Shown: positions 46,780 through 51,558 of the stretch, in pieces
Position numbering within the stretch: the first letter of the stretch is position 1
Layout: each line of letters starts with the position of its first letter
Notes under the pieces: generated by a model
The model's database searches: none
The model's input: only the letters and a program-made list of their open reading frames with translations
What the model was told of the DNA's origin: nothing
Assembly (NCBI RefSeq): GCF_000382205.1
Contig: NZ_KB907789.1
Coordinates: forward strand, 310,001 to 374,000
Length of the DNA: 64,000 nt
From: Dyadobacter beijingensis DSM 21582
GTDB lineage: Bacteria; Bacteroidota; Bacteroidia; Cytophagales; Spirosomataceae
Direction of reading: 5' to 3'
Position numbers and translations under genes: made by a program

Positions 46780-47688
46780 CTAGGTCCGGAATGCACGCGG
46801 GCTGAGCGTCGTATGCTTTTTGAAAAGGTTATTGAAATGCGAAGCTTCTTCGAAACCGAGGCTGTAAGCGATCTCGGACACATTCCAGTCGGTATGCTTC
46901 AAAAGGATTTTGGATTCCTTGATAATGCGCTCGGTAATGAGCTCGGTGGTGGTCTTGCCGGTGATTTCCTTTAAAACCTTATTGAGGTAATTGACGTGGA
47001 TCGAAAGCTGGTCGGCATAGTCTTTGGCGGAGCGCAGGGAGAGCTTCTGATGCGGCGGCTCCACCGGGAACTGCCTTTCCAGCAGTTCGATAAAGAGCGA
47101 GGAAACGCGTTTGTAGGCATTGGGCTCCGTAAATAGCGACGTCGCGGGCTGCAACTTCTGCCCGAAATGGATGAGCTCGATCACATAGTTGCGCAGTAAA
47201 TCGTATTTATAAGCGTAATCCGACTCTATTTCCCGGAACATCTTCCTGAAAATATATTGAATATCCTCGATCTGCCCGTCGGTCAGGAAAAAAATAGGAT
47301 TACCGCCCGGCCTGAACACCGGCAGCTCGCGCAGGCGAACGCCGCTGTTGTCCTGCGTGAGGAAATCCTCGGAGAAGATACAGAAGAAGCCCGACTGGTT
47401 ATCGTCCTGCGGCACATAGTTGTAAGGAATGAGCGGCGTCGCGAAAAGCAATGCATTATGCGCTATATCAATGACTTTATCCGCATATTCTGCCCGGTTC
47501 CGCCCGATAATGAGGCTGATCTTATAGTAAGCCCGCCGGTTGTAGGGCATGGCCCGGCTTTTCGCCGCCGACCGGTACAATTCATCCGTTTTGAAAATAT
47601 TAAAGTGCCCTACCTCCTTCTGAACCGGCTCCGGGATCAGCTGGGCGGTATCCTTGTAGAATTGTTCGATGCTGTCGGATTTCATCAT
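46780..47688 (-). CDS. AraC-family transcriptional regulator
   Basis: 302 residues. An N-terminal cupin-like sensor region (~30-170) and a C-terminal AraC HTH pair (~205-300: SAKDYADQLSIHVNYLNKVL; WNVSEIAYSLGFEEASHFNNLF). The second helix-turn-helix is the stronger match. Located upstream of the SDR gene on the same strand, it may control that gene. Ligand unknown. The gene begins 22 bases beyond the stop of the UBP zinc finger gene. Confidence 0.88.
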   Translation of the reverse strand: MMKSDSIEQFYKDTAQLIPEPVQKEVGHFNIFKTDELYRSAAKSRAMPYNRRAYYKISLIIGRNRAEYADKVIDIAHNALLFATPLIPYNYVPQDDNQSGFFCIFSEDFLTQDNSGVRLRELPVFRPGGNPIFFLTDGQIEDIQYIFRKMFREIESDYAYKYDLLRNYVIELIHFGQKLQPATSLFTEPNAYKRVSSLFIELLERQFPVEPPHQKLSLRSAKDYADQLSIHVNYLNKVLKEITGKTTTELITERIIKESKILLKHTDWNVSEIAYSLGFEEASHFNNLFKKHTTLSPRAFRT

Positions 47689-47710: not shown

Positions 47711-47980
47711 CTATTCATACTCTACAAACGATTCATCCGCATAGCACCAAAGCCACTTCTCACCCGGCTCGGCGGAGGACGCTACGGGATGGCCCGTATG
47801 GTGGTAATGCTTCGTCATGTGTTTGGCGGGGGAGCTGTCGCAGCATAAGGTGGCGCCGCAGGTCTGGCAGGTACGCAAATGCACCCACCAGCCGTCGACC
47901 TTCTTGCATTCCTCGCATACGAGCTCGTCCGCGACTTTGATTTCCGCAATATCGGCAATGTGCTTACAAACCTGGTCCAT
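47711..47980 (-). CDS. UBP-type zinc finger protein
   Basis: 89 residues, a complete zf-UBP domain: C5-x-H7, C22-x2-C25, C38-x2-C41, C46/C47, H54, H58 and H60/H61/H64, with the Trp-rich tail WLWCY. In eukaryotes this fold binds the free C-terminus of ubiquitin; in bacteria, which lack ubiquitin, its role is unknown. The ATG overlaps the stop of the REC-flavoprotein gene by one base (TAATG), so it is translated with it. It may bind a peptide tail or a glycine-ending protein, but this is inference. Confidence 0.88.
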   Translation of the reverse strand: MDQVCKHIADIAEIKVADELVCEECKKVDGWWVHLRTCQTCGATLCCDSSPAKHMTKHYHHTGHPVASSAEPGEKWLWCYADESFVEYE

Positions 47981-49641
47981 TATACCTCGCTTAAATATTG
48001 GTGAACAAAACTGATGGACATCGATCCCTCGCCCACCGCCGACGTCACGCGGTTCATTGCGCCCGCACGCACGTCACCCGCGGCGAAGATGCCCGGCGAG
48101 CTCGTTTCGAGTAGGTAAGGGTCGCGATTGACCTTCCATATTTCTTTGAAATTGTCGTAATTCTTCATTTCACGGCCCGTTTCGATGAAGCCCTTCTTAT
48201 TTTTGATGATTTCCAGGCCCACCCACTCCGTGAACGGCTTCGCACCGATGAAGATGAACAATGCATCCGCCGGCACCGTGCGTTCCTCGCTGGTGTTCAG
48301 GTCCACCAGTTTCAGGTGTTCGAGATGATCTCCGCCCTGCGCTTCCAGGATCTCCGTGCAGCCCATTACCGCAATGTTCTCGGTACCGGCGATCTGGTCG
48401 ATCAGGTAGGACGACATCGATGACGTCAGGTCGTTCCGGCGGATCAAAATGTACACATTCCGCGCGAATTTGGACAAATACATGGCCGCCTGCCCCGCTG
48501 AATTGCCTCCGCCCAGCACATACACATCCTTATTACCGCACGAGCTCGCTTCGGTACTAGCCGCGCCGTAGTAGATGCCTTTTCCGGCAAACTCCTCAAT
48601 ACCAGCAGTTTCCAGCTTCCGGTAATCCACGCCGGTCGTGATCACCACGGCCTTCGCATTCACTTCGCTGCCGTCCCCGAGCACGACGGTCTTATATTTG
48701 TCCTTCAATTTAATCTCCTTCACAAACTGCGGCGAAAGGAATTCCGTACCGAACCGCGTGGCCTGCGTGATGGCCCGGCGCGTGAGTTCCGAGCCGCTGA
48801 GGCCTGTCGGGAAGCCGAGGTAGTTCTCAATGCGCGAGCTCGTACCCGCCTGACCACCAGGCGCTTTGCGCTCGATCAATAAAGTACTTAAACCTTCCGA
48901 CGCACCATATACCGATGCCGCAAGCCCCGCGGGGCCCGCACCGATGATCACGACGTCGTAAATCTGCTGCTTCGTCTTGGGGTTCAGCCCGATACGCTCC
49001 GCGATGTCGATCAGTGACGGTGTTTTCAGCAACGAGCCGTCTTCGAATATCACCACCGGAAAGTCCACCGGGCAGAGGTTGTTGTTCTCCGAAATCTGCC
49101 TTCCGGTTTCGTTCGACTCCGCATCGAACCACAGGTAAGGCACCAGATTCCCCGCCAGGAAGTCCTTGATTTCGTGCGCCTTGGGCGAGAATTGATAACC
49201 TATTACTTTAATGCCTTTGAACTCCGGACGGTAGTTGCCCTGCCAGTCGCGGAGCAGCTCGTCGATCGGGGGATACAATTTTTCCTCCGGCGGGTCCCAG
49301 GGTTTCATTAAGTAGTAGTCCAGCTGCACATCGTTGATCGCCTTGATGGCCGCCTCGGTATCCGAATAAGCCGTCAGCAGCACCCGTTTTGCGAACGGGA
49401 ACATTTTCATCGCTTTTTGCAAAAAATCGACGCCCTGCATTTCGGGCATGCGCTGGTCGGAAATAAAAATAGCCACCTCTTCGCCGCGGTTCTGCAATTC
49501 GAGAAGGCTTTCCATGGCTTCGGCCACGGAAGTAGTGCTTAGTATCCGGTATTTGTCACGGTAATGGGATTTCAGGTCGCGACTGATCGCCCGAAGTACC
49601 TGCGGATCGTCGTCAATCGAAAAGATTATGGGCAAAGCCAT
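47980..49641 (-). CDS. receiver fused to thioredoxin-reductase-like flavoprotein
   Basis: 553 residues. Receiver (~1-130: D10-D12, phospho-acceptor D62 in FISDQRMP, T90, K113); then a glutaredoxin-like domain (~143-220: YQFSPKAHEIKDF ... VDFPVVIFEDGSLLKTP) in which the redox cysteines are absent; then a TrxR-like module with FAD site IIGAGPAGL (232-240), NADPH site GGGNSAG (377-383) and AAGDVR near the end. Where TrxR has CxxC this protein has GAASTEASSC, so only C368 remains. It may thus be an NADPH-using flavin switch rather than a disulfide reductase. Kinase gene upstream is 30 bases away; the UBP gene overlaps downstream. Confidence 0.9.
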   Translation of the reverse strand: MALPIIFSIDDDPQVLRAISRDLKSHYRDKYRILSTTSVAEAMESLLELQNRGEEVAIFISDQRMPEMQGVDFLQKAMKMFPFAKRVLLTAYSDTEAAIKAINDVQLDYYLMKPWDPPEEKLYPPIDELLRDWQGNYRPEFKGIKVIGYQFSPKAHEIKDFLAGNLVPYLWFDAESNETGRQISENNNLCPVDFPVVIFEDGSLLKTPSLIDIAERIGLNPKTKQQIYDVVIIGAGPAGLAASVYGASEGLSTLLIERKAPGGQAGTSSRIENYLGFPTGLSGSELTRRAITQATRFGTEFLSPQFVKEIKLKDKYKTVVLGDGSEVNAKAVVITTGVDYRKLETAGIEEFAGKGIYYGAASTEASSCGNKDVYVLGGGNSAGQAAMYLSKFARNVYILIRRNDLTSSMSSYLIDQIAGTENIAVMGCTEILEAQGGDHLEHLKLVDLNTSEERTVPADALFIFIGAKPFTEWVGLEIIKNKKGFIETGREMKNYDNFKEIWKVNRDPYLLETSSPGIFAAGDVRAGAMNRVTSAVGEGSMSISFVHQYLSEV

Positions 49642-49671
49642 AGCAGCTTTTTGTTAAGTGTTGAATTAAAA

Positions 49672-51072
49672 TTATCCATTAAACGGGAAACATACCACAA
49701 ATTCCGTCCGGCCGGGGCTGGAATGCAGCGTTACGGTACCATGGTGCTGCCGCACGATCCGGCTTACTACGTCCAGTCCGAGGCCCGTCCCTTTCCCGAC
49801 CGATTTCGTCGTAAAAAACGGGTCGAAAATTTTCGAACGGATGTCCGCCGGAATGCCGGGGCCATTGTCGCAGATCGTCACTTTCACAAACTCCTTGTCC
49901 CGGCGCGTGATGATGGTGATCTCAGGGTCTGGCTGGTTTTCGAGCGCGTCCACGGCATTGTCGATCAGGTTCGTCCACACCTGGTTAAGCTCCCCTACCA
50001 TCGCTTTCACGGCCGGCAATGTGAGGTCGAAATCTTCGGTAACCTTGATATTCCCCTTTTTCAGCTTGTAATTGAGGATAATGAGCGTGTTGCGGATGCC
50101 GATATGAATATCCACCAGCTCGCGCTCGCCCCCGCGGTCCATATGCGTGAACGACTTCACCGAACCCACCAGCTGCGCAATGCGCTTGGATGCTTCCCCG
50201 ATGTCGGCCACCATGCGCTCGGTCGTAAGGCTGTTATTGATCCACGTCAGCACGGGCGACAGGTCTTTGTGGTTGATCCTGCTTTTCAGCTCGTCGAGGT
50301 CGCTCTCGCCAACCCCGAATTCCACGAGGTTATCGGCAATATCCTCACAGCCAATGATATTGTTCATATCCAGCCAGTCGAGAATTGCGTCCTCCTTTTC
50401 CGACCGTTTCATCATCGACAGTACAGGCCGTTCCGCTTTGGCGAGCAAACTCACCATTTTGTCGTTGATCAGGTCGATCTCCTCGTGCGACAAATGGATC
50501 GACAGCAGCGATTTGAATGCGTCCGGCTGCATGAGCAAATGCTCTTTCAGCGAAGCCGAACTGCGGACAATGGCCGCCGCCGGGTTGTTGAGCTCATGCG
50601 CGAGCCCGGCCGACAGCTTGCCGAGCGCCATCATCTTCTCATTCTGCTGTTCGAGCTCTGTAAACTCCCGCACCCGCGACGTCATCACGATCACGAGCGC
50701 CTGCGTCAGCTCATAATGCAAAGTGACAAGCTCCCGCAACAGTTCTTTTGGGAACGTCATCAGCTGCGCCGTTTCGAGGCATACCCCGTACGCAATGGCA
50801 ATTTTCCCCCGCGAAAACGGCAGGATACCCGTCACCGTACCCGGCGGCAGATCTGCGATGATCTGCTTCGTATTGTTCTGGACCCGGTACAATTCAATGC
50901 GCCCCGAGAAGATCACGTGCGTGCCCACGAGCGGTTCGCCCGGCCGGATCATCATGTCGCCCTCCTGCAATTCATAATGCGAACTGCGGTCGATCATCCA
51001 TTGCAGCTGGTTTTCAGGGACATCCTTAAAAACCTCAACAGCCAGCAGATCTTTGACGGTGATATCCTTCAT
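49672..51072 (-). CDS. histidine kinase with cyclic-nucleotide-binding-like sensor
   Basis: 466 residues, soluble. N-terminal cNMP-binding fold (~5-125: [34 protein letters not shown]), helical linker, DHp with H159 in [14 protein letters not shown], and a HATPase with DNAVDAL, DNGPGIP and GKGTGLGLD. The canonical phosphate-binding cassette (FGE...RxA) is not evident; the region reads [14 protein letters not shown], so cyclic nucleotide binding is doubtful. The receiver that it would phosphorylate is on the flavoprotein encoded 30 bases downstream. The start at 51072 ([10 protein letters not shown]) fits the domain. Confidence 0.9.
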
Positions 51073-51183
51073 GGGGGCAAATGGGAATGGTGTGAGTCGA
51101 AACGCCCAATTTCGAAATAAATCGGCATTTGCGCGGGCTTTTTTTGCGGCAAGCTTCCGAAAGAACAACAAGTTCCCTGCTTT

Positions 51184-51558
51184 TTACACAATACCGCCCG
51201 TCACCACGCGGCTGTAAATCCGGTACTCCGGCAGCCCGCTGATGCTTTCGGCAATGCTCACCTCTACCCAATCACGGTTGGCGGGGTGCACAAATGCCCC
51301 GTTACAGGCCGGAAAGAGCTGTTTCAGCCTCTCGAACGAGGCCGTTTCGAGGTTGATTTCCTCATGACCGAGCTCCGTAGACAAGTAGTGCCCGGTACAT
51401 AGCCCAAGCGAAGTTTCGAACTCGATTTTCACCATGCTGCCCACAATTTCCTGCTGCATAATGTCGAGCACGACCTCTTCCCGCAGGTCGTCGGCAGTGC
51501 CCAAAGTTTCCTCCTGGTCGCCCAGGGTGTCGACCCCGGGAATATCGATAATTGCCAT
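51184..51558 (-). CDS. 124-residue hypothetical protein
   Basis: An acidic, soluble protein with no signal peptide and no recognised domain. The N-terminus (MAIIDIPGVDTLGDQEETLG) is unusually acidic and low in complexity; the remainder has an alternating beta pattern (MVKIEFETSLGLCTGHYLST; WVEVSIAESISG). It lies 111 bases upstream of the kinase gene on the same strand and could be the first member of that operon. It is divergent from the DUF72 gene. Confidence 0.55.
   Translation of the reverse strand: MAIIDIPGVDTLGDQEETLGTADDLREEVVLDIMQQEIVGSMVKIEFETSLGLCTGHYLSTELGHEEINLETASFERLKQLFPACNGAFVHPANRDWVEVSIAESISGLPEYRIYSRVVTGGIV

Follow-up and report, generated by a model that had tools for sequence, protein, structure and literature searches.

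A conserved module of a cyclic nucleotide-fold kinase, a receiver-flavoprotein and a UBP zinc finger in Dyadobacter beijingensis and other bacteria, with a possible role in thiol and electrophile stress

In a stretch of 64,000 nucleotides from Dyadobacter beijingensis DSM 21582 (contig NZ_KB907789.1, positions 310,001 to 374,000), hereafter the window, three genes encode a histidine kinase with a cyclic nucleotide-binding (cNMP) fold (HK), a flavoprotein in which a receiver domain precedes glutaredoxin-like and thioredoxin reductase-like parts (FL), and a zinc finger of the zf-UBP family (ZF). An initial annotation, made from the sequence alone, had described these genes as an operon, with 30 bases between the kinase and flavoprotein genes and an overlap of one base between the flavoprotein and zinc finger genes. 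This layout is correct, the ATG of the zinc finger gene sharing a base with the stop codon of the flavoprotein gene, and the operon is a real and widely conserved functional unit. That kinase, flavoprotein and zinc finger form a conserved module is near certain. Judging from comparisons with relatives, the chances are about even that this module serves in thiol and electrophile stress and works in a manner resembling KefF, the flavoprotein subunit of the antiporter KefC.

Conservation was assessed in 150 genomes of the window's family, Spirosomataceae, accepting E-values of up to 1e-60 for the flavoprotein and up to 1e-40 for the kinase, and in 395 genomes drawn across Bacteroidota. Kinase and flavoprotein occur in an identical set of 59 family genomes and lie no more than 500 bp apart in 57 of them. 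The zinc finger was found in 53 family genomes, 51 of which also encode the flavoprotein (within 500 bp in 41); the exceptions are two incomplete drafts that have only the zinc finger and eight genomes that have only the flavoprotein. For the phylum sample, flavoprotein and kinase were scored on the best three candidates of each genome, so that absence is weaker than presence; the zinc finger exceeded its cut-off in 36 of these genomes, the flavoprotein was detected in 53, and both were present in 33. The kinase was present in 48 out of 48 phylum genomes with a receiver-type flavoprotein and in none of the five with a receiver-less one, which is the partition that a kinase-receiver partnership predicts. 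Three of these 48 kinase matches are not adjacent to the flavoprotein gene (G282, on another contig; G422, about 30 kb away; G379, about 4 kb away), and a fourth, in G235, spans the kinase core only. Five further phylum genomes gave a kinase match without a flavoprotein, all of them weak and limited to the core (E 3.7e-45 to 1.5e-41). By these counts, the kinase and the receiver-flavoprotein behave as obligate partners.

The genomic surroundings were scanned in 177 loci, including 52 family loci and 80 named loci that were identified through their zinc finger. A flavoprotein gene was present in 44 of the named loci, within 3 kb in 43; at one copy per several megabases, placement within 3 kb would be expected by chance in well under 1% of cases. 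The order HK-FL-ZF was found in 40 of the 52 family loci and in 17 of the 80 named loci, while ZF-HK-FL and FL-ZF-HK account for 15 and 3 of 34 phylum loci, respectively, and FL-HK-ZF occurs in Streptomyces fungicidicus and Tsukamurella tyrosinosolvens. Given that the gene order is variable, the linkage looks selected. A search for co-occurrence had been suggested in the initial annotation, with lack of conservation in related genomes as the outcome that would count against it; the co-occurrence tables place the trio in related genomes far above chance. In Nostoc, Deinococcus aetherius and Caballeronia, the retrieved stretch contains the kinase and flavoprotein pair but no zinc finger. In Caballeronia sp. 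NK8 (L172:2460-7062), a single receiver-flavoprotein lies between two different cNMP-kinases, and in one genome of the window's genus (G051) the receiver-flavoprotein occurs three times, two of these copies having a kinase. Patterns derived from one sequence found no match in viral contigs.

The kinase scored 35.2 bits against the Pfam profile cNMP_binding (PF00027; cut-off 27.5) and 88.0 bits against HATPase_c (PF02518; cut-off 26.4). With HisKA it reached 19.2 bits, under the cut-off of 26.9, and the H-box AHELNNP is nonetheless plain. The phospho-acceptor histidine and the N and G boxes of the kinase occupy columns conserved in at least 95% of 62 sequences, and the same holds for the phospho-acceptor D62 of the receiver together with D10-D12, T90 and K113. 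Considering these conserved histidine and aspartate, threonine and lysine residues, along with the obligate pairing of kinase and receiver, it is plausible that phosphorylation gates the FAD/NAD(P)H protein, as had been proposed. cNMP domains are characterized by a phosphate-binding cassette motif. The alignment agrees with the earlier observation that the usual cassette is missing from the kinase, a 15-residue stretch at this site being degenerate; a cassette-like sequence was seen in an Acidimicrobiia relative (L144).

The flavoprotein matches Response_reg (48.9 bits; cut-off 30.2) and Pyr_redox_2 (120.4 bits; cut-off 26.1), and its AlphaFold2 model (pLDDT 85.3) comprises the receiver, a glutaredoxin-like domain and the thioredoxin reductase fold. 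Foldseek searches with the model retrieved thioredoxin reductases and, over the whole length, AhpF. In an alignment of 88 cores, mostly from the window's own family, a cysteine was detected at either CxxC position in none. Loss of the CxxC motif had thus been read correctly, but not the presence of a lone cysteine at that site: the two positions are G359 and S362, and C368 lies six residues on. This C368 was considered as an essential redox residue and rejected, being cysteine in 62, phenylalanine in 25 and tyrosine in one of the 88 cores and nearly invariant only in a smaller alignment of 29 sequences. The glutaredoxin-like domain had likewise been described as devoid of its cysteines; its fold is present in the model with no active-site cysteine, and the active-site position is serine in 72 of 85 cases and cysteine in one. 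Seventy columns of the flavoprotein are conserved at 97% or more, including the GxGPAG, GGQ, GGGNSAGQ and GD regions, and the FAD and NAD(P)H motifs are its best conserved columns. The model fits the FR form of the Lactococcus thioredoxin reductase (5mh4, TMt 0.89) far better than the FO form (5mjk, 0.60). As modelled, the flavoprotein resembles the flavin-reducing (FR) rather than the flavin-oxidising form, which would be expected if a dithiol never needs exposing.

Thioredoxin reductases and AhpF share with the flavoprotein the FAD and NAD(P)H domains and the overall fold, and the N-terminal thioredoxin-fold domain is placed as in AhpF. Unlike these enzymes, the flavoprotein lacks both the CxxC motif and the glutaredoxin-like cysteines, carries a receiver in front and remains under the NCBIfam cut-offs, scoring 234.1 for TRX_reduct (TIGR01292; cut-off 343.45) and 153.8 for AhpF (TIGR03140; cut-off 502.9). 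Judged by the features that define thioredoxin reductases, it is not one of them, and it may perform related chemistry.

The same glutaredoxin-like and thioredoxin reductase-like core occurs with a cNMP domain fused ahead of it in 17 of the 80 named loci, as well as in Rhodococcus and Cupriavidus metallidurans. The loci with this fusion, all 17 named ones among them, hold no cNMP-kinase. In a quick, midpoint-rooted tree of 85 cores, which carried long-branch warnings, cNMP-fused and receiver-fused cores fall largely into two separate branches. Cores with neither fusion were found with separate two-component genes adjoining them in Agrobacterium (L033) and Pedobacter (L111). The joining of the same input domain to the same core, either covalently or via a phosphorelay, is the strongest hint that the signal runs from the cNMP-like sensor to the flavoprotein. 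A purified cNMP-TrxR protein, ATII-TrxR, which is 87% identical to a C. metallidurans protein, is reported to bind FAD, use NADPH and reduce both thioredoxin (kcat 28.4 per s) and DTNB, with cysteines 206, 223, 376 and 467 claimed as redox residues (PMC6544261). In the C. metallidurans homologue (L169), Cys 187, 204 and 357 show the spacing of the first three, and no counterpart of Cys 467, as numbered in the accessible text of that report, is present at the corresponding spacing in L169. Since three of the four cysteines named there match, ATII-TrxR very likely belongs to this flavoprotein family and has no CxxC. ATII-TrxR and the other cNMP-fused proteins thus resemble the flavoprotein of the window in their core, and differ from it in having cNMP instead of the receiver fused and no kinase partner in the locus.

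The zinc finger scored 49.2 bits against zf-UBP (PF02148; cut-off 22.7), and its AlphaFold2 model (pLDDT 91.7) adopts the ZnF-UBP fold, with Z-scores of 12.2 to the bacterial nuclear magnetic resonance structure 2ida (RPA1320) and 10.3 to HDAC6 (3phd). The protein is therefore a whole zf-UBP domain, as initially annotated, and its zinc-ligand residues are conserved. In eukaryotic ZnF-UBP domains, the arginine that follows the CG of the third cysteine grips the carboxylate of the ubiquitin tail. In the bacterial proteins, CCD or CCN takes the place of this CGR segment, Cys47 and Asp48 or Asn48 being present in all 169 unique zinc finger sequences, while arginine at position 51 was found in three of them. 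Of the 169, 77 came from a scan with patterns containing WVHLR and CCD, and thus could not have shown the arginine; the 85 obtained by Pfam searches are free of this bias and agree. Moreover, the bacterial domains have a W-x-HLR stretch inserted before the second cysteine pair. Given the replaced arginine and the added stretch, it is unlikely that they hold a Gly-Gly carboxylate by the known mechanism. The fold and the zinc-ligand pattern are those of HDAC6, of the USP5 ZnF-UBP and of 2ida, but the eukaryotic domains are carried on deubiquitinases and deacetylases, whereas the bacterial zinc finger is stand-alone or fused to an antiporter.

Antiporter-like genes were found in 22 of the 177 scanned loci, all from the phylum sample, and 14 loci of one Bacteroidota family have the order antiporter-ZF-HK-FL. 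In nine of these 14 operons a DsbA-like thioredoxin gene lies in between, and in 11 there are Glyoxalase- and Abhydrolase_2-type genes upstream, which we take to be MhqO-like and MhqD-like; what was seen are the Glyoxalase and Abhydrolase_2 domains, with no NCBIfam match at 1e-10. Antiporters with Na_H_Exchanger and TrkA_N domains carry a C-terminal zf-UBP domain at L174:6578-8662, L177:4249-6312, L179:4941-7097 and L185:4587-6698, and in Deinococcus ficus (L208:4213-6249) an annotated cation:proton antiporter includes the zinc finger match. Together, the KefC-like antiporters with a C-terminal zf-UBP domain from these five genomes apparently form a fusion class of their own. Three phylum genomes have the zinc finger without the flavoprotein (G191, G234 and G433), and in all three an antiporter is fused or adjacent to it. 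The best solved relative of the antiporters is Escherichia coli KefC (E 2e-64 for L177). A further KefC-like antiporter (L188:5219-7774) has TrkA_C and a C-terminal glutaredoxin domain with one cysteine (WCPLT), and adjoins a receiver-flavoprotein, a separate zinc finger and a kinase.

In the Kef system, an antiporter (KefC or KefB) works with an ancillary flavoprotein (KefF or KefG), and glutathione conjugates gate it. One report describes KefF as an ancillary flavoprotein subunit that reduces quinones and is needed for full KefC activity; gating of KefC takes place on its KTN domain, and zinc ions are present at the KefC-KefF interface (PMC10224563). The relatives of the operon bring together the same elements, namely a flavoprotein, a link to electrophile stress and an antiporter of the CPA2 type that carries a KTN (TrkA_N) domain. 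They differ in that KefF, an FMN quinone oxidoreductase, has another fold, while here the flavoprotein is thioredoxin reductase-like with a receiver, and in having a kinase partner and a zf-UBP domain; besides, the window's own operon includes no antiporter.

A second link concerns ergothioneine synthesis. EgtB and EgtD, identified by NCBIfam equivalogs over their cut-offs, directly follow the zinc finger gene in 14 family loci, precede the kinase gene in L088, L092, L094 and L096, and form a ZF-EgtB-EgtD row in a Gallionella metagenome-assembled genome (L121). Within the family sample, EgtB is encoded by 56 of the 59 flavoprotein genomes vs 13 of the 91 others, and lies within 500 bp of the zinc finger gene in 14. 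Possible genes for the detoxification of carbonyls and quinones form a third, more scattered group: an aldo/keto reductase gene lies between those for kinase and flavoprotein in two Aquimarina, an S-(hydroxymethyl)mycothiol dehydrogenase gene is present at the Tsukamurella locus, Verrucomicrobia loci include an Abhydrolase_2 gene and a glyoxalase-type gene, and in Rhodococcus trxA (thioredoxin) and chaperone genes stand beside the module. A globin gene and a kinase gene in Mucilaginibacter were counted in this group as well. The ergothioneine, antiporter and detoxification neighbourhoods are three independent pointers, and they point the same way, to thiol and electrophile stress. These links, as well as the cNMP-flavoprotein fusion, were absent from the initial annotation. 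Among other neighbours, DUF5996 (PF19459) adjoins zf-UBP in 4 of 81 typed neighbours (L102, L166 and others), and in Mucilaginibacter (L106:5233-7261 and L109:5233-7261) a histidine kinase, a bacterial globin (PF01152) and zf-UBP stand in a tight row with no flavoprotein. The 47 scanned loci without a flavoprotein have mixed neighbours (20 neighbour genes typed).

These data can be assembled into a working model. The soluble cNMP-fold kinase would sense a cytoplasmic signal and phosphorylate the receiver fused to the flavoprotein, which would move electrons from NAD(P)H, its probable donor, to FAD. As there is no internal disulfide to pass these electrons on, the protein would differ from an ordinary thioredoxin reductase and act as a flavin oxidoreductase or redox switch under the control of phosphorylation. 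As an adaptor, the zf-UBP protein would link the flavoprotein to an effector; the most telling candidate effector among relatives is a KefC-like K+/H+ antiporter, zf-UBP being covalently attached to its C-terminus in some genomes and free in others. With zf-UBP fused to or located beside the antiporter, the flavoprotein would play for it the part that KefF plays for KefC. The putative task of the module is thiol and electrophile stress, which the neighbouring genes for EgtB and EgtD and for glyoxalase/dioxygenase-like, carboxylesterase-like, aldo/keto reductase and mycothiol dehydrogenase proteins would fit. The conserved module, the intact phosphorelay residues, the absence of CxxC, the altered pocket of the zinc finger, the fusions and the neighbourhoods are observations, from which the direction of the signal, the use of NAD(P)H by this protein, the adaptor role, the kind of stress and the effector in D. 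beijingensis itself are inferred. An extended form of this model is a tentative proposal, and we lean against it: a thiol and electrophile system spanning several phyla, in which a cNMP sensor, fused or acting via a relay, commands a disulfide-less KefF-like flavoprotein that the UBP finger docks on Kef-like antiporters and perhaps on ergothioneine enzymes, and in which the flavoprotein may reduce an oxidised low-molecular-weight thiol in an NAD(P)H-dependent manner.

Several observations weigh against a KefF-like role in thiol and electrophile stress. An antiporter-like gene is absent from the 52 family loci and the 80 named loci, and all antiporter proteins remain under NCBIfam's curated KefC cut-off. 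None of the ergothioneine, detoxification or antiporter genes adjoins the window's own operon: the best Kef-like gene of this genome is on another contig (C5) and lacks a zinc finger, and its EgtB gene is also on another contig (C3). EgtB is present in 13 family genomes that lack the module, and the zinc finger occurs with no flavoprotein in the locus in 36 of the 80 named loci, some of which are contig ends. Among 81 typed of 128 listed adjacent genes there is no dominant class, so that the scattered detoxification genes, picked from a mixed set, have to be weighed accordingly. Furthermore, the Fisher tests on co-occurrence ignore shared ancestry. Finally, the reported reduction of thioredoxin by a purified cNMP-fused relative argues for an enzyme (PMC6544261).

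The flavoprotein could accordingly be a true disulfide reductase, acting on thioredoxin or on a low-molecular-weight thiol such as oxidised ergothioneine through non-classical cysteines and switched on by phosphorylation, the zinc finger then being a subunit or an adaptor for the substrate. We regard this as rather unlikely and still deserving of serious attention, considering the activities reported for ATII-TrxR and the match of its claimed cysteine spacing to L169 (PMC6544261), the trxA gene in Rhodococcus, the DsbA-like thioredoxin in 9 of the 14 antiporter operons and the adjacent EgtB and EgtD genes. It has to contend with the complete absence of CxxC from the 88 cores, with the replacement of C368 by phenylalanine or tyrosine in 26 of them, with a glutaredoxin-like active-site cysteine in just one of 85 and with the sub-threshold TRX_reduct score. 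In addition, Cys 467 has no counterpart in L169, and no cysteine mutant of ATII-TrxR is described in the accessible text of that report (PMC6544261). The same losses of the CxxC and glutaredoxin cysteines could be taken to mean that the flavoprotein is a catalytically dead scaffold in an ordinary two-component stress regulator, which the zinc finger only stabilises and in which no redox chemistry occurs. However, a dead scaffold would not need the FAD and NAD(P)H motifs that are the best conserved part of the protein (70 columns at 97% or more), and the predicted structure best fits the flavin-reducing form of thioredoxin reductase, which makes this explanation improbable.

The initial annotation had suggested a different output, in which the zinc finger reads a free peptide C-terminus, such as a ubiquitin-like tail, presented or exposed by the flavoprotein. 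The domain does have the same fold as the ZnF-UBP of HDAC6 and USP proteins (Z 8 to 10) and retains the W-x-W-C-Y part of the pocket. The comparison disfavours this suggestion, as the tail-binding arginine is replaced in all 169 sequences, W-x-HLR is inserted and no ubiquitin-like or E1/E2 gene was detected among the typed neighbours, and we consider it very improbable.

The features of the window discussed here are listed in Table 1. By the mechanical delimitation of open reading frames (ORFs), the kinase gene extends to a TTG at position 51171; in most relatives, the alignment starts at about residue 28-48 of this longer ORF. The region initially annotated ends at 51558 and includes an additional ORF, for which no match was found in Pfam or NCBIfam and which is kept upstream of the kinase gene in 14 loci (12 belong to genomes of the window's genus, two to Dyadobacter). 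On the other side, a gene for an AraC-family regulator begins 22 bases past the stop codon of the zinc finger gene and is in place in 10 loci; it may share a transcript with the operon. There were no matches to the Bacteroidetes-type promoter pattern within the window, and sigma-70-like and terminator-like sites are no commoner there than in shuffles, so that they do not mark the ends of the operon. Named relatives of the zinc finger with 89-90% identity are those of Dyadobacter endophyticus and D. soli.

Table 1. Genes of the module and flanking genes, in positions of the window
Feature	Coordinates	Strand	Description
Kinase (HK)	49672-51072	minus	ATG at 51072, 466 aa; predicted soluble, N-terminal cNMP-fold, phospho-acceptor H159
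Flavoprotein (FL)	47980-49641	minus	553 aa; receiver 1-128, glutaredoxin-like 144-217, thioredoxin reductase-like FAD/NAD(P)H part about 225-553
Zinc finger (ZF)	47711-47980	minus	89 aa, stand-alone zf-UBP; putative docking adaptor
124-aa ORF	51184-51558	minus	Just upstream of kinase; genus-level cluster member only
AraC-family regulator	46780-47688	minus	PF12833/PF00165; genus-level member only

In open-licence full texts, listings and the beginnings of abstracts, we found no paper that joins the kinase, the flavoprotein and zf-UBP. If the proposed working of the module is true, bacterial zf-UBP proteins, a common group with no assigned function, would gain a place in a defined signalling unit, and a two-component relay would be coupled with a flavin redox switch rather than with DNA binding. 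A UBP zinc finger would then do work that has nothing to do with ubiquitin, and may ancestrally have served as a docking domain for redox proteins and ion transporters. The antiporter-zf-UBP fusions make this question directly testable in culturable soil bacteria.

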